Assembly (NCBI GenBank): GCA_017635515.1
Contig: JAGBLH010000223.1
Span: forward strand, 1-34,166
DNA: 34,166 nucleotides
Direction: 5' to 3'
Origin: Selenomonas sp.
GTDB taxonomy: Bacteria > Bacillota > Negativicutes > Selenomonadales > Selenomonadaceae
Of this stretch, positions 22,119 to 34,166 are shown piece by piece. The first letter of the stretch is position 1. Every line of letters starts with the position of its first letter. The position numbers and the translations under genes are program-made. The notes beneath the pieces were generated by a model, which saw only the letters and a list, made by a program, of their open reading frames with translations, did not search any database and was not told the origin of the DNA.

Positions 22119-23699
22119 ATGAAAGAGCAGAGAAGGCGGTTGCCCATTGGGGTGCAGAGTTTTGCCAGCCTGAGAAAGGAAAACTTTGTCTATGTGGACA
22201 AGACTAGGTACATTTATGAACTGGTTCACGGCAGCAAGCAGTATTTTTTGAGCCGTCCCCGCCGTTTTGGCAAGAGCCTTTTCTTGTCAACCCTGAAAGT
22301 TTATTGGGAAGGGGCGCGGGAACTTTTCGAGGGGCTGGCCATAGCAGAGCTTGAGCAGGGAAAAGCAGAAGCCTGGCAGCCGTATCCGGTCTTTTACTTT
22401 GATTTCAACGGGCAGAACTATCAAAAGGAGACGGCGCTGGAAGATGTTTTAGACAAAATGCTGGAGCGCTGGGAGGATGAGTATAGTTGCGAGAAGGATG
22501 GCACATTAAGCAATCGGTTCCAAAATTTGCTGACCAAAGCCAGAGCCAAGACCGGCAGAGAATGTGTGGTGCTGGTGGACGAGTACGACAAGCCGCTGCT
22601 TGAGGTCTTGGAAAATGATGCCTTGGAGGAGCACAACAAGGCAGTATTCAAGGGCTTTTTCGGCACCCTCAAAAATTATGATGAATACCTGCGCTTTGTC
22701 TTTTTCACCGGGGTCACGAAATTCAGCAAGGTGAGCATTTTCAGCGATCTGAACCAGTTGGAAGATATTTCCATGGATGAGGACTATGCCGGTATCTGCG
22801 GCATCACCGAAACAGAAATGAGGGAAACTTTTGCCTTGGAAATCCGGCAGATGGCTGAGGCAAATGGCCTGTCGGAAGAGGCCTGCCTGGCACAGCTGCG
22901 CAAGGCCTATGATGGCTACCATTTTGCTGCGGAGGCGGAAACAGGCGTCTATAATCCCTACAGCCTGCTGAATGCCTTGAAGAAGCGCAGATTCGGTTCT
23001 TTCTGGTTTGAGACAGGCACGCCCACTTTTCTGGTGAAAAGAATTGGCAAGAGCTCCTTTGATGTGAAGAAGTTCACGGATGGAAAGCTTTACTCCACGG
23101 AGCGGGCCCTGTCAGACTATCGTGCAGACAATCCTGACATTGTGCCCCTGCTTTATCAGACGGGTTATCTCAGCATGGCGGGCTACGATTCTAAGCGTCA
23201 GCGCATCACCTTGAGCTTCCCCAACGACGAGGTGAAATACAGCTTTCTGGACAGCTTGCTGGCTGTATATACGCCTGAGGTTCTGGCTGGTTCCGGCAGG
23301 GATTTGTTTTCCTTGGATGATTGTCTGGAAAACGGTGATTTGGAAGGAATCAGGGATATATTGACGGCACTCTTTGCCAGCATTCCCTATAGCTCGTCAG
23401 AATCTCCTTTCGAGCATTATTTTGAAGCGGTGCTCTATCTGGTCTTCACCCTGCTGGGCAAGTTCGCAGCCTGCGAAGTCCATAGCAGCAAGGGCCGCGC
23501 TGATGCTGTGGTGGAAACGGCAGAGTATGTCTATATCTTTGAGTTCAAGCTGGACAAGAGCGCAGACGAGGCCCTGGCACAGATAAAAGAGAAAGAATAT
23601 GCTCTGCCTTACAAGGCAGACAAGCGCAAGGTATTCGAGATTGGCGTGAACTTCGATTCTGAGAGCCGCAAGCTCCAAGAGTGGAAGATGGCAGAGTAG
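22119..23699 (+). CDS. AAA-ATPase-like / PD-(D/E)XK nuclease-like protein
   Basis: 526 residues. ATG 22119 follows GGGAGGAG by 6 nt. The opening (LPIGVQSFASLRKENFVYVDKT) and the variant P-loop RPRRFGKSLF (Gly51-Lys52-Ser53) are typical of the AAA-ATPase-like family (PF09820). Walker B is VVLVDEYDKPL (Asp154, Glu155). The C-terminal region resembles PDDEXK_9 (PF08011, formerly DUF1703), with GRADAVV (Asp462) and EFK (Glu475, Lys477). The family is common and often multicopy in gut anaerobes. Its role is unknown, though a DNA or mobile-element function is often suspected. All catalytic-looking residues are intact. Confidence 0.9.
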   Translation: MKEQRRRLPIGVQSFASLRKENFVYVDKTRYIYELVHGSKQYFLSRPRRFGKSLFLSTLKVYWEGARELFEGLAIAELEQGKAEAWQPYPVFYFDFNGQNYQKETALEDVLDKMLERWEDEYSCEKDGTLSNRFQNLLTKARAKTGRECVVLVDEYDKPLLEVLENDALEEHNKAVFKGFFGTLKNYDEYLRFVFFTGVTKFSKVSIFSDLNQLEDISMDEDYAGICGITETEMRETFALEIRQMAEANGLSEEACLAQLRKAYDGYHFAAEAETGVYNPYSLLNALKKRRFGSFWFETGTPTFLVKRIGKSSFDVKKFTDGKLYSTERALSDYRADNPDIVPLLYQTGYLSMAGYDSKRQRITLSFPNDEVKYSFLDSLLAVYTPEVLAGSGRDLFSLDDCLENGDLEGIRDILTALFASIPYSSSESPFEHYFEAVLYLVFTLLGKFAACEVHSSKGRADAVVETAEYVYIFEFKLDKSADEALAQIKEKEYALPYKADKRKVFEIGVNFDSESRKLQEWKMAE

Positions 23700-23750
23700 A
23701 GTGGTTTTCAATCTGTGCCAGAATGCACACTTAGCTGATGGGAGTATGTG

Positions 23751-24548
23751 ATGACTGAGAAGACAGAGAAATTGTTGGCTGTGCTGCGTGGCTATGGCAG
23801 CGTGGCTGTGGCGTTGTCCGGGGGCGTGGACAGCATGACTTTGGCCAAGGCCGCTTGTCTGGCTTTGGGGGATAAGGCGGTGGCGGTCACGGCGGCGTCG
23901 GAGCTTTTGTCGCGGGAGGAGCACGAGGATGCGGTGCAGGGGGCATCTGCCATTGGCATCAGGCATGTCCTCCTGCCTGCGGAAGACTTGGCCTATGAAG
24001 ATGTGCGGCGCAATGACAGGGAGCGGTGCTACTACTGCAAGCGTCACCGCATGGAAAAGATTCTGGCCTGGGCAGCGGAGGAAGGGATAGCCATAGTGGC
24101 GGACGGCTCCAATATTTCGGACAGGGGCGACTACCGCCCTGGGGCAAGGGCCTTGCAGGAACTTGGCATACGCTCTCCCTTGGCAGAGTGTGGCTTTGAC
24201 AAGGAAGATATACGCAAGCTGGCCCAGACGTGGAATCTGGCGGTCTGGGACAAGCCCAGTGCCGCCTGCCTGGCCTCCAGGGTGGCTTATGGCCTGGAGC
24301 TGACGGCTGAGAGACTGCAGCGCATCGATGAAGCGGAGCGCTTCCTGCGGAAGCTGGGGGTCAAGGGGCAGCTGCGGGTGCGCGACCACGGGAATCTGGC
24401 GCGGCTGGAGGTGGCTGAGGGAAGGCTGCCCCTCTTGCTGGAGCACAGGGCAGAAGTGTCTGGCAGGCTGAAAGACTTGGGCTTTGCCTATGTCACATTG
24501 GATCTGACCGGCTACCGCATGGGCAGCCAGAATGAGGCGGTACACTAA
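23751..24548 (+). CDS. larE: LarE-type ATP-dependent sacrificial sulfur transferase
   Basis: 265 residues. ATG 23751 follows GGGAG by 6 nt; the GTG one codon earlier is less well placed. The PP-loop ATP-binding motif is VALSGGVDSMTLAKA (20-34). The sulfur-donating cysteine corresponds to Cys173 in KPSAACLASRVAYG. LarE adenylates and sulfurises the precursor of the nickel-pincer cofactor of lactate racemase. larA, larB and larC are not present in the window. The downstream gene begins 10 nt after its stop, or overlaps it, so the two may be cotranscribed. Confidence 0.9.
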   Translation: MTEKTEKLLAVLRGYGSVAVALSGGVDSMTLAKAACLALGDKAVAVTAASELLSREEHEDAVQGASAIGIRHVLLPAEDLAYEDVRRNDRERCYYCKRHRMEKILAWAAEEGIAIVADGSNISDRGDYRPGARALQELGIRSPLAECGFDKEDIRKLAQTWNLAVWDKPSAACLASRVAYGLELTAERLQRIDEAERFLRKLGVKGQLRVRDHGNLARLEVAEGRLPLLLEHRAEVSGRLKDLGFAYVTLDLTGYRMGSQNEAVH

Positions 24549-24558
24549 AGTGGGCGGC

Positions 24559-25599
24559 ATGGCGCTGAAAAAGATTGTGGCGTGTCTTGCGGGCGCCATC
24601 CTGCTCCCCCTCTGTCTGTCTGGCTGCGGCGGGCCCCCCGCGCCTGAGGCAGAGGAAAACAAGGTGGTCATTTACTGCTCCCATCCCCTTTCTTTCGTCA
24701 CGCCCTTGGTGGAGGAATTTGAGCAGGAAAGCGGCGTGAAGGTGGAAGTGGTGGCAGAGGGCACAGGGGCCCTTTTGCAGCGTCTGGAGTCTGAGCAGGA
24801 GCAGCCGCAGGCGGATATCTTCTGGGGTGGCTCCCTGTCCACTGTGAAGCCCAAGGCGGCGCTCTTTGCAGAATACCGCTCTGCCCATGAGGGGCAGCTG
24901 CAGGAGGGCTTCAGGAATGTGGAGGGTTCCATCACCCGCTTTACGGATATCCCCAGTGTCATCATGGTCAATACCGACCTGATTGGCGATTTGCAGGTGG
25001 AGGGATATGAGGATCTGCTGAATCCTGCCCTCAGGGGGAAGATTGCCATGGCAGACCCGGCGCAGTCATCCTCGGCCTATGAGCACCTGATCAATATGCT
25101 CTATGCCATGGGGGCAGGTGAGCCGGAGCAGGGCTGGGGCTACGTGGAGAAACTGGTGCAGAATCTGGATGGCAGGCTGCTGGCAAGTTCTGCGGAGGTG
25201 TACCTGGGGGTGGCTGACGGGGAGTTTGCCCTGGGGCTCACCTTCGAGGAAGGAGGTGCCAGATATGCCTTGGCGGGGGCACCGGTGAAGCTGGTCTACA
25301 TGAAGGAGGGAGTTATCTCCAAGCCGGATAGCATCTGCATCGTCAGACAGGCCAGGCATAGGGAGAAGGCCGAAAAATTCCTCGACTTCATCACCGGCAA
25401 AGAAGCCCAGACCTTTATCGCCCGGCGCCTTCACCGCCGCAGCGTCCGTGAGGATGTGGCAGCCCCTGCCGGCCTCCTGCCCAAGGAGGAGATCCGCTTC
25501 CTCACCGATGAGGAGGAAGTGGTAAGCGGATGCAAAAAGGCCTGGCTGGATAGATTCGCCGCTATTTTATCCAGAGGTCAAGAGGGACTTCATTTTTGA
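24559..25599 (+). CDS. AfuA/HptA-like ABC-type substrate-binding lipoprotein
   Basis: 346 residues. ATG 24559 gives a clean lipoprotein signal (MALKKIVACLAGAILLPLCL, then SGC, Cys23). The longer start at 24532 would overlap larE and spoil it. The mature protein has the two-lobed binding-protein pattern of the iron/sugar-phosphate class: VVIYCSHPLSFVTPLVEEFE, ADIFWGGSLSTVKP, RFTDIPSVIMVNTDLIG and LRGKIAMADPAQSSSAYEHL. No permease or ATPase gene is adjacent. With the kinase and AraC-type regulator downstream, it may serve as the sensor of a three-component system, as HptA does in Staphylococcus aureus. The ligand is inferred only. Confidence 0.82.
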   Translation: MALKKIVACLAGAILLPLCLSGCGGPPAPEAEENKVVIYCSHPLSFVTPLVEEFEQESGVKVEVVAEGTGALLQRLESEQEQPQADIFWGGSLSTVKPKAALFAEYRSAHEGQLQEGFRNVEGSITRFTDIPSVIMVNTDLIGDLQVEGYEDLLNPALRGKIAMADPAQSSSAYEHLINMLYAMGAGEPEQGWGYVEKLVQNLDGRLLASSAEVYLGVADGEFALGLTFEEGGARYALAGAPVKLVYMKEGVISKPDSICIVRQARHREKAEKFLDFITGKEAQTFIARRLHRRSVREDVAAPAGLLPKEEIRFLTDEEEVVSGCKKAWLDRFAAILSRGQEGLHF

Positions 25600-25622
25600 G
25601 GACATTTTTACAGGATTCTGGA

Positions 25623-25651
25623 TTGTTTGGTACAATTTACTCCGCTATAAT
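25623..25651 (+). promoter_or_regulatory. agp promoter
   Basis: TTGTTT (25623-25628), a 17-bp spacer and perfect TATAAT (25646-25651) lie 45 nt before agp. Confidence 0.75.
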
Positions 25652-25696
25652 ACAGAGCGTAAAGAAAAACAGCGCTATCTGAGGAGGAAACCAAAC

Positions 25697-27013
25697 ATGA
25701 ATCTCAAGAAAATAGCCGCGTCCCTCTGCCTTTCCATGCTGACTGCGGTAAGTGCAGTGCAGGCGGAGCGCCCTGCATCCTTCCATGACAACTATCAGCT
25801 GGAGGAAATGGTGATTCTCAGCCGCCACAATATCCGCTCACCCCTTTCCGGCAATGGTTCGGCCCTGGGGAACCTCACTCCCCATGAGTGGTTCAAGTGG
25901 ACCTCTGGCCCCAGCGAGCTTTCCCTGCGGGGAGGTCAGCTTGAGACCATGATGGGGCAGTATTTCGCCCAGGTACTGGAAGCTGAGGGGCTGATTGGGG
26001 ACAGGAATACCTACAGCCCGGCTGAAGGGGAGATGCGCTTCTATGCCAACTCCATGCAGCGCACCATTGCCACGGCCCAGTATTTCTCCAGCGGCATGCT
26101 GCCGGTGGCCAATGTCACCATCGAGCACAAGTATGCCCCCAGCAAGATGGACCCGGTGTTCAACCCCCAGCTCACCTATGTCAGCGATGAGTTCCGCCGG
26201 CAGGCCATGGAGGAAATCAGCGCCATGGGCGGCAAGGAGGGGCTGCAGGGCATCAATAAAAAGCTGGCGCAGAACTACCGCACTATAGAAAAGGCTCTGG
26301 ATCTGAAGGATTCTCCTGCGGCCAAAAAGGACGGGCTGGAGAAGTTCCGCTATGATGATCTGCAGATCAGCCTTGAGGAGGGCAAGGAACCTGCTATGAA
26401 GGGGTCGCTGAAACTGGCCAACTCTGCCAGCGATGCCTTTATCCTCCAGTATTACGAGGAGCCGGACAAGGTGAAGGCAGGCTTTGGCCATGCCTTGAGC
26501 CAGAAAGAATGGGAGGAAATCGCCAGCATCAAGGACGTCTACGGCGATGTGCTGTTCACCGCTCCCAGCGTGGCCGTGAATGTGGCCCATCCCCTGCTGC
26601 AGGAAATGAGCAAGGAACTGGCTGTCCCCGGCAGGAAGTTCACCTTCCTCTGCGGCCATGACTCCAACATTGCCAGCGTCCTCGCTGCTCTGGGGGCCGA
26701 GGAATACGACTTGCCCCGCAGCATAGAGAAAAAGACTCCCATCGGCTCCAAGCTGGTGGTGGAGAAGTTTGCCGGCAAGGACGGGGTCGAGTATGCTGCC
26801 CTCAGCATCGTCTACCAGACCACTGACCAGCTCCGTGACCGTACGGCCCTGACTCTGGAGAATCCCCCCATGGTCTACCCCGTGAAGCTCAAGGGGCTCA
26901 AGGCCAACAAGGACGGCCTGTACAAACTCCATGATCTCCAGCAGCGCTTCCACAAGGCCATCGGCGCCTATGACGAACTGCCCGGCAAGAGTGCAGCAAA
27001 GCAGGCAGCCTGA
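25697..27013 (+). CDS. agp: Periplasmic glucose-1-phosphatase (histidine acid phosphatase)
   Basis: 438 residues. ATG 25697 follows GAGGAGG. The signal peptide MNLKKIAASLCLSMLTAVSA has likely cleavage after VQA. The catalytic motif is LSRHNIRSPL (Arg43, His44), with Asn replacing the usual Gly as in E. coli Agp. The proton donor is His321-Asp322 (CGHDSNIASVLAALG). Further Agp-like stretches include NSMQRTIATAQYF and KTPIGSKLVVEKF. The enzyme releases glucose or other sugars and phosphate from sugar phosphates (possibly phytate) in the periplasm. Its own promoter and terminator separate it from the kinase that follows. Confidence 0.92.
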   Translation: MNLKKIAASLCLSMLTAVSAVQAERPASFHDNYQLEEMVILSRHNIRSPLSGNGSALGNLTPHEWFKWTSGPSELSLRGGQLETMMGQYFAQVLEAEGLIGDRNTYSPAEGEMRFYANSMQRTIATAQYFSSGMLPVANVTIEHKYAPSKMDPVFNPQLTYVSDEFRRQAMEEISAMGGKEGLQGINKKLAQNYRTIEKALDLKDSPAAKKDGLEKFRYDDLQISLEEGKEPAMKGSLKLANSASDAFILQYYEEPDKVKAGFGHALSQKEWEEIASIKDVYGDVLFTAPSVAVNVAHPLLQEMSKELAVPGRKFTFLCGHDSNIASVLAALGAEEYDLPRSIEKKTPIGSKLVVEKFAGKDGVEYAALSIVYQTTDQLRDRTALTLENPPMVYPVKLKGLKANKDGLYKLHDLQQRFHKAIGAYDELPGKSAAKQAA

Positions 27014-27040
27014 GCAGGCCTGTTAGAAGAATAAGCAGCG

Positions 27041-27078
27041 AAAAAGCGAAACTCCTTTGTCAAGGGGCTTCGCTTTTT
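27041..27078 (+). terminator. agp terminator
   Basis: The stem AAAAAGCGAA (27041-27050) with TTCGCTTTTT (27069-27078), extended inside by CTT/AAG pairing, lies 27 nt after the agp stop. Confidence 0.75.
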
Positions 27079-27099
27079 GGTGTGCGGGCAAAAGCAGTC

Positions 27100-27128
27100 T
27101 TTATAAGAGACAATTATTTCGCTATACT
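27100..27128 (+). promoter_or_regulatory. Putative promoter of the kinase-HAD-regulator operon
   Basis: TATACT (27123-27128) has a weak -35 (TTTATA, 27100-27105) at 17-bp spacing and lies 32 nt before the kinase start. Confidence 0.4.
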
Positions 27129-27160
27129 AGAGACAGAGAAAAAGAGGAGGGGGCAGTCTC

Positions 27161-28693
27161 ATGCAGCGTTATTTCCAGTCCCGCCTGCAGCGCGCGTTGG
27201 CCTGGTATGCTATCGTGCCAGTGCTGGTCATCACCCTTTTGGGCACTGCCCTCATGCTGGCAAGCTGGCAGCGCTCCGTGGTGCAGGCCAATGAGGAGGC
27301 CAGGGAAGCGGCAGCGGAAGCTTTGAGCGAAGCGGGCCGGGAATTCCTGCAGCGCACCGGGGAGGCGGCTGAGTTTTTGGGGGCGGTGCCGGATTTTTCC
27401 CTGTGGCGGGAGGACAGGGGGAAGCGGGCCGAGGCCTTGGCCAGGCTGCACCATGACACCAGCCGCCGTGGCGTGGCTTTCTACTTGCTGGATGCGGAGG
27501 GCAGGCTGATGCTGGGCAGCGGCCCCCTGCCTGACTGCCTGCAGTATGCAGAGGAAGGCTGGGGGCTTTGGGACAGGTTGCAGAGAGAGCCGCAGCTGCC
27601 CAGGCAGGAATGGCTGCCGGGAGCAGGGGGGCAGGCCCTGGTCTGCGGTCAGGCGGTGCAGTCAGGGGGACAGACGGTGGGAGCCATATTCTTCCTGCTG
27701 CCTGCGGCCTATTTGCAAGAACTGGCGGGGGAGGGCCCTACCTGCCTGGTGCTGACGGACGAGCTTGACAATGCCAGGCTGGTGAAGGGGGACGGGGCAC
27801 CGGTAAAATACAGGAAGCTGAGGAAAGAGTTTGCAGAGCAGGGGGAGGGGCTGGTGATGCTGGAGGAAAACCTCTACTATGTCACCAGCAGGCAGGTGGA
27901 ACTGGGCAGCGGCACAGGCAGGGTCTATGCCATCACCGGGGTTTCGGACCTCCTGCTGCGCTATGCCTTTGGGGCGGGGGCCTTGGCCCTGGCGGTGCTG
28001 CTGATGATTCCCCTGCTGCTCAGGAGCATAGAGAGAGAGAGCCGCCTGACGGCCCAGGCGCTAGATGACCAGACCGCCATCGCCCAGCTGAAGGAGCTGG
28101 AGTCCCAGTTCAACCCCCATTTCCTTTTCAACACCCTGGAAAATATCAAATTCATGGTGCGCCTTGACCCTGGGGCGGCTACGGAGATGCTCATGGCCCT
28201 GTCTTCCCTCCTGCGCTACAGCATTTCCGGCGGGGGGCGGCAGGTGGAGCTGCAGGAGGATTTGAAGTATCTGGCAAGCTATATGAAGATACAGCAGTAC
28301 CGTTTCGGCAGCCGCCTGGCCTTTCAGCAGGAAATCGACTCAGGGGCCCTGTCCTGCCGGATTCCCAAACTGCTCTTTCAGCCCCTGTTGGAAAATGCCA
28401 TCAAATACGGTGAAGATGAGGAGGGGAAGCTGGATATTTCCTTCCAGATCAGAGCAGCCGGAAAGGGCGTGGAAATCACAGTGCGGGACAGGGGCCGGGG
28501 CATAGGGGCAGAGCAGCTGGCAGAATTGCAGGCCTTGCTGAGCTCCGGGGACAACAACACGGGCCACAAGGGCTTGTTCAATGTGCAAAGAAGGGTGCAG
28601 CTGCTCTATGGGGAGAAATACGGCTTGAAGATTGCATGTCCCCCGGAGGGCGGTACGGAAATCAAGCTGCTGCTGCCCCTTTACTTGACCTAA
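27161..28693 (+). CDS. YesM-type sensor histidine kinase
   Basis: 510 residues. ATG 27161 follows GAGGAGGGGG. A membrane helix (about 14-34), an external sensor region of about 230 residues and a second helix (about 269-290) lead to the His_kinase domain. That domain has phosphorylatable His320 in LESQFNPHFLFNTLENIK. The ATPase domain shows PKLLFQPLLENAIKYG (N-box), VRDRGRGIG (G1) and HKGLFNVQRRVQLLYG (G2). All catalytic motifs are intact. The next two genes follow closely (17 nt and 12 nt gaps) and include the cognate AraC-type response regulator. Confidence 0.93.
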   Translation: MQRYFQSRLQRALAWYAIVPVLVITLLGTALMLASWQRSVVQANEEAREAAAEALSEAGREFLQRTGEAAEFLGAVPDFSLWREDRGKRAEALARLHHDTSRRGVAFYLLDAEGRLMLGSGPLPDCLQYAEEGWGLWDRLQREPQLPRQEWLPGAGGQALVCGQAVQSGGQTVGAIFFLLPAAYLQELAGEGPTCLVLTDELDNARLVKGDGAPVKYRKLRKEFAEQGEGLVMLEENLYYVTSRQVELGSGTGRVYAITGVSDLLLRYAFGAGALALAVLLMIPLLLRSIERESRLTAQALDDQTAIAQLKELESQFNPHFLFNTLENIKFMVRLDPGAATEMLMALSSLLRYSISGGGRQVELQEDLKYLASYMKIQQYRFGSRLAFQQEIDSGALSCRIPKLLFQPLLENAIKYGEDEEGKLDISFQIRAAGKGVEITVRDRGRGIGAEQLAELQALLSSGDNNTGHKGLFNVQRRVQLLYGEKYGLKIACPPEGGTEIKLLLPLYLT

Positions 28694-28710
28694 AAGGAGT
28701 TAATGGCAAA

Positions 28711-29529
28711 ATGGGCAAATTTACAGGCAAACTTATCATCTCTGATCTGGACGGCACGCTGATACCCAGGGGCGGCGTCATTTCGGAAGAAAACCGCAGG
28801 GCTATTGCGTATTTCGTAGGGGAGGGCGGCCTTTTCTCTGTGGCCACGGGACGTACCCCGGAGGCAGCGGCGGGCTATGTGGAGGGGCTGCCCCTCAATG
28901 CCCCCGGCATCTTCTTCAACGGCGCCATGCTCTATGACTGGCAGAGAAAACAGGTGCTGAAGACCCTGCCCCTCACGGCAGGGGACGAAAATAATCTCTG
29001 GCCGGCTTTTGCCCGCGAGGCCCTGCGGCGCTTCCCGGAGGCCTGCCTGGAGGTCTATACCGAGGACAACTGCCATGTGGTGACGCCGGAGGAAAATGAT
29101 GACCCCAGGCTGCCCTATGAATACTATCGCTATGCCCATACAGACCTGGAAAGGCTGACGGATACAGGGAAGACCCCCTGGTTGAAATTCTTCGCCTGCG
29201 ACAGGCATGAGCATTTGGAAAAGTATGTGGCTCTGGCTGAGGAGATGGGCGTGGCAGCCCTGGCCAACGGCTTTTATTCCGAGGACAATTACTATGAGTT
29301 CGTAGCCAGGGAGGTTTCCAAGGGGGCCATGCTGGAGACAGTGAGAGAAATGCTGCCCGGGGTGGAAATCATCGCTTGCGGGGACTATCTCAACGACAGG
29401 GAACTGCTGGCATCTGCGGACATTTCCGTGGCTCCCGCCACGGCCCACGAAGCAATCAGGGCCGCCGCCAGGCTGAAAGGCCCTGCCGTAGAAGACCATC
29501 TGCTGGCCTGGCTGATGGAGAAGCTGTGA
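28711..29529 (+). CDS. HAD-superfamily (Cof/IIB-type) phosphatase
   Basis: 272 residues. ATG 28711 (MGKFTGKLIISDLDGTL) has AAGGAG 11 nt upstream, immediately after the kinase stop. Motif I is ISDLDGTLIP (nucleophile Asp12, acid Asp14). Motif II is SVATGRTPEAA. The conserved Lys region is followed by motif IV CGDYLNDRELLASAD. The long cap fits subclass IIB, whose members dephosphorylate sugar phosphates and similar small molecules in the cytoplasm. Its place between kinase and regulator suggests that its substrate is linked to the sensed signal. A fragment of a second copy lies at 30303-30377. Confidence 0.9.
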   Translation: MGKFTGKLIISDLDGTLIPRGGVISEENRRAIAYFVGEGGLFSVATGRTPEAAAGYVEGLPLNAPGIFFNGAMLYDWQRKQVLKTLPLTAGDENNLWPAFAREALRRFPEACLEVYTEDNCHVVTPEENDDPRLPYEYYRYAHTDLERLTDTGKTPWLKFFACDRHEHLEKYVALAEEMGVAALANGFYSEDNYYEFVAREVSKGAMLETVREMLPGVEIIACGDYLNDRELLASADISVAPATAHEAIRAAARLKGPAVEDHLLAWLMEKL

Positions 29530-29541
29530 GGGGAAAGCCAT

Positions 29542-30306
29542 ATGCTGGATTTAGTAATCGTAGAGGATGAAGAAATCATCCGCCGGGGCCTGGTCTGCAC
29601 CATAGACTGGCTGAAGCTGGGTGCCAGGGTGGTAGGGGAGGCCGGCAACGGCAGGGAGGCCCTGTCTGTCATTCGGGAAAAGCGCCCCCAGGTGGTGCTC
29701 ACCGACATCAAAATGCCCGTCATGGACGGGTTCGCCCTCACGGAAGCCCTCAAAGCAGAGGGAAACAAGGCCAAAATCATCTACCTCACCAGCTACGCCG
29801 ACTTTTCCTATGCCCAGCAGGCCCTGCGGCTGGAGGTCAGCGACTACCTGCTGAAGCCCGTCAGCGAGGAGGATCTGGGCAAGGCCCTCGCCAAACTGGA
29901 AGCAAGGGAGGAAGCCCCCCAGGAAGAACCCTCCTGGGACAAAGGCCTCCGGGAGGCTTATCACACGGGGAACCCCTATGTAAAGTCTGTGCTGAAGCGC
30001 ATCGAGAGCGGCTACCAGAAGCGCCTCAGCGGCGAAGCTCTGGCAGACGAGCTGGGAGTCTCCTTCAGCTACCTCTCCCGCAAGCTGAAGGAAGAAACAG
30101 GCCAGACCTTTGGCAGCCTTTTAGCCCAGTACCGCCTGCAGAAAGCCATAGAAATGCTGCAGGCAGGCACTTGGAAGGTCTACGAGATAGCAGAGGAAAC
30201 GGGCTTCGGCGATTACAAGAACTTCGCCCAAGTGTTCAAGAAATACCTGCACACCACTCCCAAGGCCTTTATGCAGGAAATCACCGGGGGGCTGAAGCTG
30301 GAATAA
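29542..30306 (+). CDS. YesN-type response regulator with AraC DNA-binding domain
   Basis: 254 residues. ATG 29542 follows AGGGGAAAG. The receiver domain (about 1-120) has the acidic pair in IVEDEE, phospho-accepting Asp55 (VLTDIKMPVMDG), conserved Thr/Ser in YLTSY and Lys105 (YLLKPVSEEDL). The C-terminal AraC-type double helix-turn-helix (about 150-245) includes LADELGVSFSYLSRKLKEE and AEETGFGDYKNFAQVFKK. It is somewhat shorter than typical YesN proteins because the linker is short. It should activate target genes when phosphorylated by the kinase encoded two genes upstream. Confidence 0.94.
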   Translation: MLDLVIVEDEEIIRRGLVCTIDWLKLGARVVGEAGNGREALSVIREKRPQVVLTDIKMPVMDGFALTEALKAEGNKAKIIYLTSYADFSYAQQALRLEVSDYLLKPVSEEDLGKALAKLEAREEAPQEEPSWDKGLREAYHTGNPYVKSVLKRIESGYQKRLSGEALADELGVSFSYLSRKLKEETGQTFGSLLAQYRLQKAIEMLQAGTWKVYEIAEETGFGDYKNFAQVFKKYLHTTPKAFMQEITGGLKLE

Positions 30307-30478: not shown

Positions 30479-33400
30479 ATGGCAATTTCTACGAGTACAA
30501 TGAAGTCCTTCATGGATGTATTGGCGCAGTACAAAAATGACACCACGACTAGCGGCATCGCGATTCTTGACCATGCAGTGCGCGCGGTTTCGGGGTTTAA
30601 TAGCCTGCAGGCTGCTATTGATGCCTTTGTGGCTGATGTGACGGATACAAGTGAATATGAGGACGTTGACGAACGCCTTAAAGAGACCTGTGGCATCGTC
30701 CTCGGGACTAAAGAGGCCATCTATACCGCAGATACTGGCGCTGTCAGCGGTTCCAATGCGGGAAACAAAACAACGAAGAACGCGGTGACCATTGTGCCAG
30801 AGGAAACCAACAAGAAACTTAATGAGTTTGAACGGCCAGATGCTAATTCTCGCACTCCGCACCACTATAATGCCGACGGGGTGGAGCACACCTTCTATAT
30901 CAAGTGGCCAACAAGCTTCACTCAGGTCGTAGATCGGAAGTGGCAAAATATTGATGATTATGATCCAACAAATTGGGATACAATTGATTTAAAAAAACAT
31001 GAAAAATATTACATTAAAGACCCAAAGAAAACTGAAAACCCAGGCTACTTTACGGCGGATGATCTGGAAGATAGCATTCAGACTATCAGCAGGGGAATTG
31101 AGCATTGGTGGGTTGAGCAAAGCGCCCAGTTGATTTACGATTCTTTTGGCGTGGATTTTAACGGCAAAACCTTGGTGGTAGACTTCGTGGTGAACCAACC
31201 TGACTTACAGGCGATTACCTCTCCTGCAAACGAGAAGGATTATGATTTTACGCCTACAGATGAAATCCGTATGTCAATCGCACTTTCCACGTACGGGATA
31301 ATAGATGCGTATGATGTGAACGGCAACACTCGCATTAAAGATGGAGCACAGGAGTGCTATCTGGATCGCACCATTGCCCATGAAATGGTGCATGCCGTCA
31401 TGTATGGAAATGGCACCTTGAAGGGCTATGAAAAAAATAAAGGCGTCAGTATGCCGCAGTTTTTCACTGAGGGCGTTGCAGAGCTCATCATGGGCTTGGA
31501 TGATTATGACGCGGACAAGACAGAAGAAATCCTGGAACTGGCCAATGATTCTGAGAAGTTGTCAGAGGCGATGTCTTTGGAAGGCGGGACGGGAAAAGAC
31601 ATCTGCTATACCGCCGGCTATATGTTCCTGCGCTATCTCTGTAAGCAGGGACTGAACAACCCGTCAGCGGTTGCGGATGTCGAAGAGACTGAATGCTACT
31701 ATGGAAATGGCGAGGAGCTTGGAGAAGGTGATGACGTAAGAGACGCGGTTATCAAGATCGATGTCTATAACGATGGCAAGACGGTAGATGTTACGGATAA
31801 GGTGGATGAGGGCGTCAGAATCGACCTGACAGGTGCCAATGTAAAGGTCAGCGACAAAACAGGGGATGTAATCTTTACGTTGAGTGGCACCCGAATTTCA
31901 GGTGAGGCGTTTTCCGTGGAGGGCAACAAAGTTACGGAAACGACAAAACCGCTGACGGTCTGGGAGGGCAGCATTATCACCACTGCTGATGACGGAAACT
32001 TCAATTTAGAGGCGGACGGCGTTATAGATGTCGAGAGAAAAGGCAATAGCAATACTACCATCAACGGCGTACTATTCGCCGTCACTAACGCACCAGAGGA
32101 TGGCGTCACCTTCAGGAAACGGGGCGGAATTGTAGAAGCAGAGCTTGACGCTGATGCAGAGCTTGACGCTGATAAGGAAACCTTAACGGTAGGTGGTGAC
32201 TTCACTTTTGAAGTGGACGAGCTTGCCGAAAAGGGCGGCATTGCCGTCTATGTGGATGAGGCGGGCAGCCATGTGACGAGGCTGGCTGATGGCGACAAGG
32301 TAATTGTCACCAAGGGCGGCCTTTCGACCACCTACACCGCTGCTGGCGGGATGCTGGAAGTCAAATATTCAGACGGCAGTTCCACGACCACCAAATCCTA
32401 CTCCCGCGGAAACTGGACTGCCTTCACCGCCACCTGGGACGGAACTGCTGAACCCGTGGTGGGCACAGGCCTAAAATCAGGGACTGTAATCATGGGGGGC
32501 AAAGAACTGACCTCCGTGGTGGACGGGGCCATGATTGATGCTCAGGGCAATGTCACCGCAGATGGGAACAAGGCCGTTGCCACCATCAAAGAAGAGGGAG
32601 AATTCTTGAACTATAAGTCCAAGGCTACATCGAAAGCACAGGAAATCATTATCACCGACACCAACGGAGTGAACTGGAATATCGACAACAGCGCATCTAG
32701 TGGGCGCACTTTTGTTGATGTGGGCGTGATCAGGGACAGTGAAGGAGAATTCCAGGGAAGCAGGTCCGTGAATGAGGCGGTGAACTTCACCGCAGGTAGT
32801 GGCAAGAGCGAGGTGGCGATTTACAGCGATGCAGATTCCAGCATCCAGGGTGGCGCAGGGAACCTCATCGCCACCGTCGGCGGCGAGGGCAACCATCACT
32901 TGACCGCAGGCTCCGGCAGCAAGAATGAGCTCTATGACTTAGGCACGGGAGAGAACACCATCACCGGCGGTTCCGGCAAGACCATCTTTCAGTCCAAAAA
33001 CGAAAAGGGCAAGCTGGTGGCAGGCACAGGCCAGAATACCTTCCAGACTACCAAAGGCGTCACCAACAAGATTGAAGGCTACACCTTCGGCAGGGACGAG
33101 GTTTCCATAGGAGCCGTCATCGGCTACTACGACGACTTCGTCGTGGGAGAAGGAACCATAAGCTATGAAGACAAAAACACCTATGGCGAGTTGGACGTAT
33201 CCTCCGGCACAGGCACCGGCAATGCGTATATGGTGACCATGGTGGACAGCACGGGCCACAAGACCCGCGTGGGCTGGACAGGAGAAGACGGCGGCACCGT
33301 GGATGCATCCTCTGAGACGAAGCCCTTTGTGCTCATCGGGGACCGGAATAAAGATGCCAAGGATATCCTCATTGGAGGAACGGGCAATGATGTCATCTAT

Positions 33401-34166
33401 GCCGGTGAAAATGACATCGTGAGGGGAGGCGCAGGCAGGAACGAGATTCACCTGCTGGGTGGAAGCTGCAGAACCGTAGAGTTCGGCACTGCAGGAGCCA
33501 AGGACGAAGTCGCAGGTTTCATGCCAGGCTTTGATGTGGATGATGCAGACAGTATCTACCTCATGGATAGCTCAGTCACAGATAGCCTGGATATCAAATT
33601 CGATGGCAAGGATGCTGTCCTGAAGAGCGGCAGCACCAAAATGACGGTGAACTCCGTCCAGAAGAACGGGAAAACCAATGCGGCAGAACTGCTCATCGGC
33701 GGGGTCAAGGTGGCAGCCATCGCGAAGGGCACCACCGCCACCATCAGCGAAGCAGACTACGCCGATGTCTATTTCGCCACAGGTTCCGCAGGCTTGGACT
33801 TCAAGGATGTGAATGATGACCTTACCATCGACCTCTCGGATAAAAATCGTTTCAGGAACATCAAGACTGTCACTGGAGGTAAGGACACCACCATCCTTAT
33901 GGGCGGCAGCGGCAAGACCACTTTGGTCTCTGGCGGCGGCGACACCAGTCTCTGGGGCGGCACAGGCAATGCCCTGCTCGTTGGCGCCAAAGACGCCAGG
34001 GACGAATTCTTCTTCTTTGGTGAAAGCGGCAAAGACACCATCTCTGGCTTTGAAGCAGGAACGGAAGATACCAGCGATGTTCTGAACATCTATGGCTCCG
34101 CCATCACGAAAATCAAGGGCACAGATAAGGGTGTAGAAATCTACACCAGTGACAGTTCCAAGCTCC
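30479..34166 (+). CDS. Giant RTX-like protein with N-terminal zincin-type metalloprotease motif (3' end missing)
   Basis: At least 1229 codons with no stop before the window ends. ATG 30479 (MAISTSTMKSFMDVLAQYKN) has GGGAG 9 nt upstream; an out-of-frame ATG 5 nt earlier yields only 9 residues. There is no signal peptide. Residues 301-305 read HEMVH (ATIAHEMVHAVMYG context) and are followed 26 residues later by FTEGVAELIMG (Glu331, Glu335), the HExxH-E pattern of a zinc metalloprotease. After about residue 425 the protein is beta-rich and repetitive. Towards the end it shows RTX-like nonapeptides such as GGTGNDVIYAG (about 966-976) and GGSGKTTLVSGGGDTSLWGG. Calcium-binding repeats without a signal peptide suggest type I secretion. 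The first third is AT-richer than the surrounding genes. Confidence 0.85.
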   Translation, partial: MAISTSTMKSFMDVLAQYKNDTTTSGIAILDHAVRAVSGFNSLQAAIDAFVADVTDTSEYEDVDERLKETCGIVLGTKEAIYTADTGAVSGSNAGNKTTKNAVTIVPEETNKKLNEFERPDANSRTPHHYNADGVEHTFYIKWPTSFTQVVDRKWQNIDDYDPTNWDTIDLKKHEKYYIKDPKKTENPGYFTADDLEDSIQTISRGIEHWWVEQSAQLIYDSFGVDFNGKTLVVDFVVNQPDLQAITSPANEKDYDFTPTDEIRMSIALSTYGIIDAYDVNGNTRIKDGAQECYLDRTIAHEMVHAVMYGNGTLKGYEKNKGVSMPQFFTEGVAELIMGLDDYDADKTEEILELANDSEKLSEAMSLEGGTGKDICYTAGYMFLRYLCKQGLNNPSAVADVEETECYYGNGEELGEGDDVRDAVIKIDVYNDGKTVDVTDKVDEGVRIDLTGANVKVSDKTGDVIFTLSGTRISGEAFSVEGNKVTETTKPLTVWEGSIITTADDGNFNLEADGVIDVERKGNSNTTINGVLFAVTNAPEDGVTFRKRGGIVEAELDADAELDADKETLTVGGDFTFEVDELAEKGGIAVYVDEAGSHVTRLADGDKVIVTKGGLSTTYTAAGGMLEVKYSDGSSTTTKSYSRGNWTAFTATWDGTAEPVVGTGLKSGTVIMGGKELTSVVDGAMIDAQGNVTADGNKAVATIKEEGEFLNYKSKATSKAQEIIITDTNGVNWNIDNSASSGRTFVDVGVIRDSEGEFQGSRSVNEAVNFTAGSGKSEVAIYSDADSSIQGGAGNLIATVGGEGNHHLTAGSGSKNELYDLGTGENTITGGSGKTIFQSKNEKGKLVAGTGQNTFQTTKGVTNKIEGYTFGRDEVSIGAVIGYYDDFVVGEGTISYEDKNTYGELDVSSGTGTGNAYMVTMVDSTGHKTRVGWTGEDGGTVDASSETKPFVLIGDRNKDAKDILIGGTGNDVIYAGENDIVRGGAGRNEIHLLGGSCRTVEFGTAGAKDEVAGFMPGFDVDDADSIYLMDSSVTDSLDIKFDGKDAVLKSGSTKMTVNSVQKNGKTNAAELLIGGVKVAAIAKGTTATISEADYADVYFATGSAGLDFKDVNDDLTIDLSDKNRFRNIKTVTGGKDTTILMGGSGKTTLVSGGGDTSLWGGTGNALLVGAKDARDEFFFFGESGKDTISGFEAGTEDTSDVLNIYGSAITKIKGTDKGVEIYTSDSSKL
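32138..32173 (+). repeat. Exact 18-bp tandem duplication inside the giant gene
   Basis: GCAGAGCTTGACGCTGAT occurs twice in a row (32138-32155, 32156-32173), encoding AELDAD twice. The copies are identical at the nucleotide level, so the duplication is recent or still slipping. Confidence 0.9.

Follow-up and report, generated by a model that had tools for sequence, protein, structure and literature searches.

The window analysed here, 34,166 nucleotides of a Selenomonas sp. draft genome (G000; 95% complete, 316 contigs, 5.8% contamination), carries on its + strand the gene order LarE-SBP-Agp-HK-HAD-RR, where SBP stands for a binding lipoprotein, HK for a kinase, HAD for a phosphatase and RR for a regulator. 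The first gene, larE (23748..24548), encodes a sacrificial sulfur transferase (TIGR00268, E 4e-90) and, as the upstream neighbour, shows where the importer was presumably lost. Behind it lie the genes for the SBP, an HptA/AfuA-type solute-binding lipoprotein and proposed sensor component (24559..25599); Agp, a secreted glucose-1-phosphatase-like histidine acid phosphatase and proposed effector (25697..27013); HK, a YesM/LytS-type sensor kinase (27161..28693; PF06580, His_kinase, and PF02518, HATPase_c); HAD, a cytosolic Cof-type phosphatase (Hydrolase_3; 28711..29529; PF08282, E 1e-32); and RR, a YesN-type response regulator with an AraC HTH and the proposed operator-binding activator (29542..30306; PF00072, Response_reg, and PF12833, HTH_18). 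These five open reading frames were all confirmed on the + strand, with the classes and order that a first-pass annotation of this DNA had given them, and no transporter gene lies within the 24559-30306 interval. The layout is known from one contig of one draft genome. Upstream of larE, at 22119-23699, is an AAA-ATPase_like plus PDDEXK_9 protein of a multi-copy kind common in gut anaerobes, a relative of which (67% identity) is also found near agp in the same-genus genome G032; downstream, 30479-34165 is occupied by an open-ended ORF of more than 1229 amino acids that has an HEMVH metallopeptidase-like motif and whose C-terminal part is repetitive and RTX/adhesin-like.

The junction between the SBP gene and agp contains an apparent operator (25589..25627, + strand) made of tandem TTCA-N7-GGACA / TACA-N7-GGATTGTTT boxes with a 20-bp period. 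It is followed by an agp -10 element, TATAAT (25646..25651), read from the sequence and with a geometry shared by relatives; the weak -35 element, TTGTTT (25623-25628), overlaps the distal operator box. On the 3' side of agp there is a terminator-like hairpin, AAAAGCGAA...TTCGCTTTTT (27040..27080), read by eye and carrying no program score, and HK appears to have its own promoter, with a -10 TATACT (27123-27128) resembling that of HK in G053, a genome of the same genus.

Agp shares its family, catalytic motifs (RHNxRxP and HD) and signal peptide with E. coli Agp. Its closest solved chains are Agp structures (PDB 3ntl/1nt4, E about 1e-70; 6e-72 for 3ntl) and it matches NF007553 at E 1e-102, but with 343.6 bits against an equivalog cut-off of 425; it would also differ from the E. 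coli enzyme in being controlled by a dedicated sensor system. The first-pass annotation had pointed to the lack of a transporter and the presence of two phosphatases. There are indeed two phosphatase genes and no importer, but HAD has no signal peptide and is thus cytosolic, not a second external scavenger. In Selenomonadaceae and Pelosinus the module retains it, and it is apparently an ancestral cytosolic partner.

The best start for the SBP is 24559, with a lipobox, LSGC, at the N-terminus within MALKKIVACLAGAILLPLCLSGC. Its best PDB sequence matches are S. aureus HptA (6lki/6lkg, E about 1e-38) and then A. pleuropneumoniae AfuA (4r72, E 2e-23), and HptA is also the first-ranked Foldseek match of the AlphaFold model (pLDDT 87.5). 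The top structures for the model are HptA, AfuA, VcA0625 and P5PA (Z 34-35 for the first three, 33-35 with P5PA included), all ranked over the iron binders; an iron-binding SBP was rejected, with FbpA/FutA-type structures scoring below all organophosphate binders. The phosphate cage involves S37, T60, S148-T150 and the G185 region in AfuA (PMC4546632) and T37, S147, T149 and S183 in P5PA (PMC8427247); by alignment, rather than in a ligand-bound model, the cage positions are kept in the window SBP as T69, S92, S170-S172 and S211, matching those of P5PA. From the family and the retained cage we infer that the ligand is a phosphorylated small molecule. The ring-binding triad of AfuA, H205/D206/E229 (PMC4546632), aligns with E231/G232/K255, and three changes at pocket positions (P41S, G210S, S212A) are, by alignment comparison, not clearly rarer than changes elsewhere. 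In published tests AfuA bound no glucose 1-phosphate (PMC4546632) and an HptA-based sensor did not respond to it (PMC13419708), so that the textbook substrate of Agp may not be the inducer. With the ring residues replaced and both tests negative, the hexose phosphate, or specifically glucose 1-phosphate, first proposed as the ligand is so far not borne out.

The best NCBIfam models of the SBP, and of the ATPase and permease found beside its orthologues, are PhnS2, PhnT2 and PhnU2, the 2-aminoethylphosphonate set. Together with the loss of the AfuA ring residues, this points to a possible, if doubtful, alternative in which the ligand is a phosphonate of the 2-aminoethylphosphonate type or some other phosphate ester, and not a sugar phosphate, with the regulatory logic unchanged. 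All three scores are under the equivalog cut-offs, however, HptA and AfuA outrank the phosphonate SBP 4r6y by sequence and by Foldseek, and the enzymes of the putative regulon are phosphomonoesterases, a class that leaves C-P bonds intact.

The combination of SBP, YesM-type kinase and YesN/AraC regulator is that of the S. aureus HptA-HptS-HptR-UhpT system, as had been recognized from the start, with HptA the closest solved structure of the SBP and the regulator, here presumably, an activator upstream of its target. Reviews describe HptA-HptS signalling as an interface switch (PMC8774646, PMC8399564). The systems differ in that a secreted phosphatase takes the place of the UhpT antiporter as the predicted target here, an ABC importer is the ancestral partner, and the ring-side pocket residues of the window SBP are not those of HptA. 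The HK ectodomain (about residues 35-265 in the model) is dCACHE-like, with Z about 16 to the sensor domains of DctB, KinD and PctA, and the kinase domain gives Z 19 to that of GanS, of the YesM/LytS family. A PDB sequence search with the sensor region gave no match up to E 1; the ectodomain has dCACHE-like matches only, and HptS is not among the chains listed for the HK model.

SBP orthologues are present in many genomes of the family, nearly all in the order ATPase-permease-SBP-HK-RR and often with HAD (genes placed by tblastn), and in Selenomonadaceae, Pelosinus and clostridia an ABC ATPase and permease accompany the SBP-HK-RR(-HAD) set; named importer-linked records include Selenomonas, Anaerovibrio, Mitsuokella, Centipeda, Pelosinus and clostridia. 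A survey of co-occurrence, as originally suggested, thus finds SBP-HK-RR, usually with HAD, conserved across dozens of genomes and ancestrally with the importer, which is not chance, but only in G000 is Agp placed as it is here. HK, HAD and RR of these modules are orthologous to those of the window, and in Selenomonadaceae the same operator is present; the modules differ in keeping ATPase and permease and in having agp elsewhere or not at all. HK groups with same-genus HKs (support 98) and RR is 91% identical to that of G053, so both belong with their same-genus orthologues. The importers of these relatives are of the same general type as the AfuABC hexose/heptose phosphate importer (Actinobacillus; Vibrio VcA0625), with which the window SBP has its fold and phosphate-cage positions in common; the window locus departs from AfuABC in its ring residues and in having no ATPase and permease, and the description of AfuABC (PMC4546632) has no linked YesM/YesN pair.

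In G053 (locus L040) the order is LarE-ATPase-permease-SBP-HK-HAD-RR, the two importer genes sitting between larE and the SBP gene, while in the window the equivalent stretch is contiguous and importer-free, with 10 bp remaining. The permease, 94-97% conserved within and near the genus, has a best match of only 24% identity in a search of the whole G000 genome. The G053 order and the absence of the permease from G000 make a loss of the importer from the stretch separating larE and SBP the most likely event, and with 10 bp left there the SBP gene no longer stands behind an operator. In another same-genus genome, G075 (L037:8950-10137), the place that agp takes in the window, between SBP and HK, is filled by a second periplasmic binding lipoprotein, of sugar type.

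A draft of this completeness and in this many contigs might be missing a permease, on a lost contig or shared with another importer, that the SBP still feeds, in which case the locus would be an import system with agp a mere extra target. An OPA/GlpT-family carrier on the 4-kb contig C185 (244 bits to TIGR00881) means, moreover, that phosphate-ester import may exist by another route. We consider retained import improbable: the importer genes of G053 sit exactly where the window is contiguous without them, a permease so well conserved in and near the genus has no close match in G000, the acceleration of the SBP described below fits the loss of a transport partner, and C185, at 51% GC where the window has 56%, may come from contamination. 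The carrier gene (L244 / G000:C185:1292-2386) adjoins an AraC regulator and is absent from the other five same-genus genomes; no member of TIGR00881 (OPA/GlpT) is over the cut-off in G000.

A shared operator connects Agp with the module. A block, TTCATTTTT-NNN-GACATTTATCC-NNN-ATTCTGGATTGTTT, is conserved in an alignment of the importer promoters of seven relatives, and the same block is found 5' of agp in the window and of the unlinked agp in G053, G032, G066 and G075. It forms a tandem of about 40 bp, with two T(T/A/G)CA-N7-GGA(T/C) boxes. Scored against the consensus built from importer promoters of relatives, the window operator reaches 33/37, compared with a maximum of 25 in 12 Mb of random sequence. 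Exactly one site (up to 3 mismatches) is present in the whole of G000, at agp; a scan of six genomes gave 8 matches against 0 for the reversed control, and one of 151 genomes gave 66, again with 0 for the control. Chance is ruled out by these two kinds of control. The 66 matches comprise 40 importer operons, 14 agp genes, 3 sites beside importer-less SBPs and 9 others, these last including at least two secreted HAD phosphatases (L140 / G053:C2:922299-923496 and L167 / G060:C15:424503), so that the regulon may include a second kind of external phosphatase. The G000 paralogues of the secreted HAD phosphatase have no operator. Since the operator is common to the importer promoters and agp, agp is very probably a target of the module, even where unlinked; and since in G053 both the unlinked agp and the importer operon carry it, regulation of agp by the module would be older than the present layout. 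Free separation of the genes in relatives, which the first-pass annotation took as counting against its reading, is thus seen by half: agp does separate from the cluster, but the operator travels with it.

The direct repeats, in tandem at a spacing of about two helical turns (20 bp) and with the distal box over the -35, have a geometry that suits an AraC-type activator, and we infer that RR binds there. Two same-genus genomes, G032 and G066, keep the agp operator and have no close RR, which might mean that the operator belongs to another regulator, of phosphate or carbon state for example, and that HK/RR does not control agp. This too seems rather unlikely: a global regulator would have many sites, while these number 1-3 per genome, at the RR-linked importer, agp and secreted phosphatases; the boxes fit an activator like RR; the G066 site is altered at a core G; and G026, whose agp is closest to that of the window, has neither an SBP orthologue nor an operator site. 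Recent loss of RR from G032 and G066 is plausible, and their agp DNA is 95-96% identical to that of G053.

The window agp itself was considered as an orthologue of the same-genus genes, but this was discarded: its sister is the G026 gene, and nothing like the agp of G053 is present in G000. In the same-genus genomes with a close agp the gene lies away from the module. A further type of importer-less SBP-HK-RR-Agp cluster occurs in the Selenomonas genomes G098, G080, G108 and G043. Like the window locus these have an operator before agp; unlike it they have agp after RR and no HAD beside, and coexist with a complete importer-linked copy. Their HK and RR form a separate clade and their linked Agps do not form a single clade with that of the window (AU p 2e-5), and the association appears to have arisen twice, independently. 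Of 8 importer-less SBP-HK-RR loci, 5 have Agp adjacent, against 0 of 30 importer-linked ones, counts that include related genomes; as these are not independent, two origins is the safer statement.

The window SBP, intact and full-length, has changed far faster than its neighbours. In Tajima-type counts with four outgroups it has 84-87 private changes against 2-3 in G053 (p about 1e-18), while the ratios of window to G053 are balanced for HK (45:42), HAD (15:12) and RR (10:5). Its C-terminus, RGQEGLHF, runs a few residues beyond that of its relatives and the stop codon falls within the agp operator, as might result from attaching agp, operator included, immediately after SBP. In a tree of importer-linked SBPs alone, grouping the window SBP with those of the same genus is not rejected (AU p 0.14); when importer-less SBPs are added it joins these (95/95), which may be long-branch attraction but could also reflect replacement of the SBP by a paralogue. 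Fast evolution would also be expected of a decaying relic of the lost importer, beside which Agp lies by chance. This reading is very unlikely: the SBP is intact with its cage positions retained, agp bears the module's operator, and the association arose a second time elsewhere.

Taken together, these comparisons make it likely that the locus descends, by loss of the importer, from a module that combined an AfuABC-like ABC importer with an HptS/HptR-like two-component system, and was converted from sense-and-import to sense-and-hydrolyse. The lipoprotein would bind a phosphorylated small molecule in the periplasm and pass the signal on to the dCACHE-type YesM kinase, in the manner of HptA and HptS; the kinase, as is usual in its family, would phosphorylate the YesN/AraC regulator, which would bind the operator over the agp -35 and activate agp; and periplasmic Agp would strip the phosphate, the product presumably entering by other routes. 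Importer loss and Agp insertion are most likely the derived states, and the lineage of the window would have acquired agp, together with its operator, behind the SBP gene. The original suggestion that external compounds are sensed and dephosphorylated instead of imported is thereby upheld as to the absence of an importer and, by the shared operator, agp as the likely target, but not as to a sugar-phosphate ligand. A regulated phosphatase in place of the importer is well supported by the comparative evidence, the sugar-phosphate ligand and the signalling steps being presumptive. The wider proposition, that import modules of the family were rebuilt at least twice in this way, with the importer lost, the SBP freed as a sensor only, and a periplasmic phosphatase from the earlier regulon moved beside it as the main output, we hold to be evenly balanced.

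If true, this would be an example of how a sensor tied to transport can come free of it, in steps that can be followed in living relatives: first the phosphatase enters the regulon, then the importer disappears and the binding protein changes fast. It would also give a glucose-1-phosphatase a dedicated regulator and operator; in the open-access literature we found no such regulator for it, nor any described equivalent of agp with a two-component system or of such a sensor without a transporter. The operator common to the importer genes of relatives and the window agp makes the sensor-phosphatase link testable, and the importer-linked and importer-free homologues are a ready list for telling the kinase-serving from the permease-serving surface of the SBP.

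Two other observations concern related binding proteins. In G092 (L070:7903-9938) another importer-less SBP stands beside HAD only and likewise forms a long branch among the SBPs; here too the importer may have been lost and the SBP have changed fast. In several same-genus genomes a paralogous SBP (41-53% identical) adjoins a large protein that combines a periplasmic binding-protein-like part with an apparent GGDEF/EAL-like cytosolic part (L055:5554-9201, which is G000:C156, and L056, L057 and L059), hinting at binding-protein input into c-di-GMP signalling.
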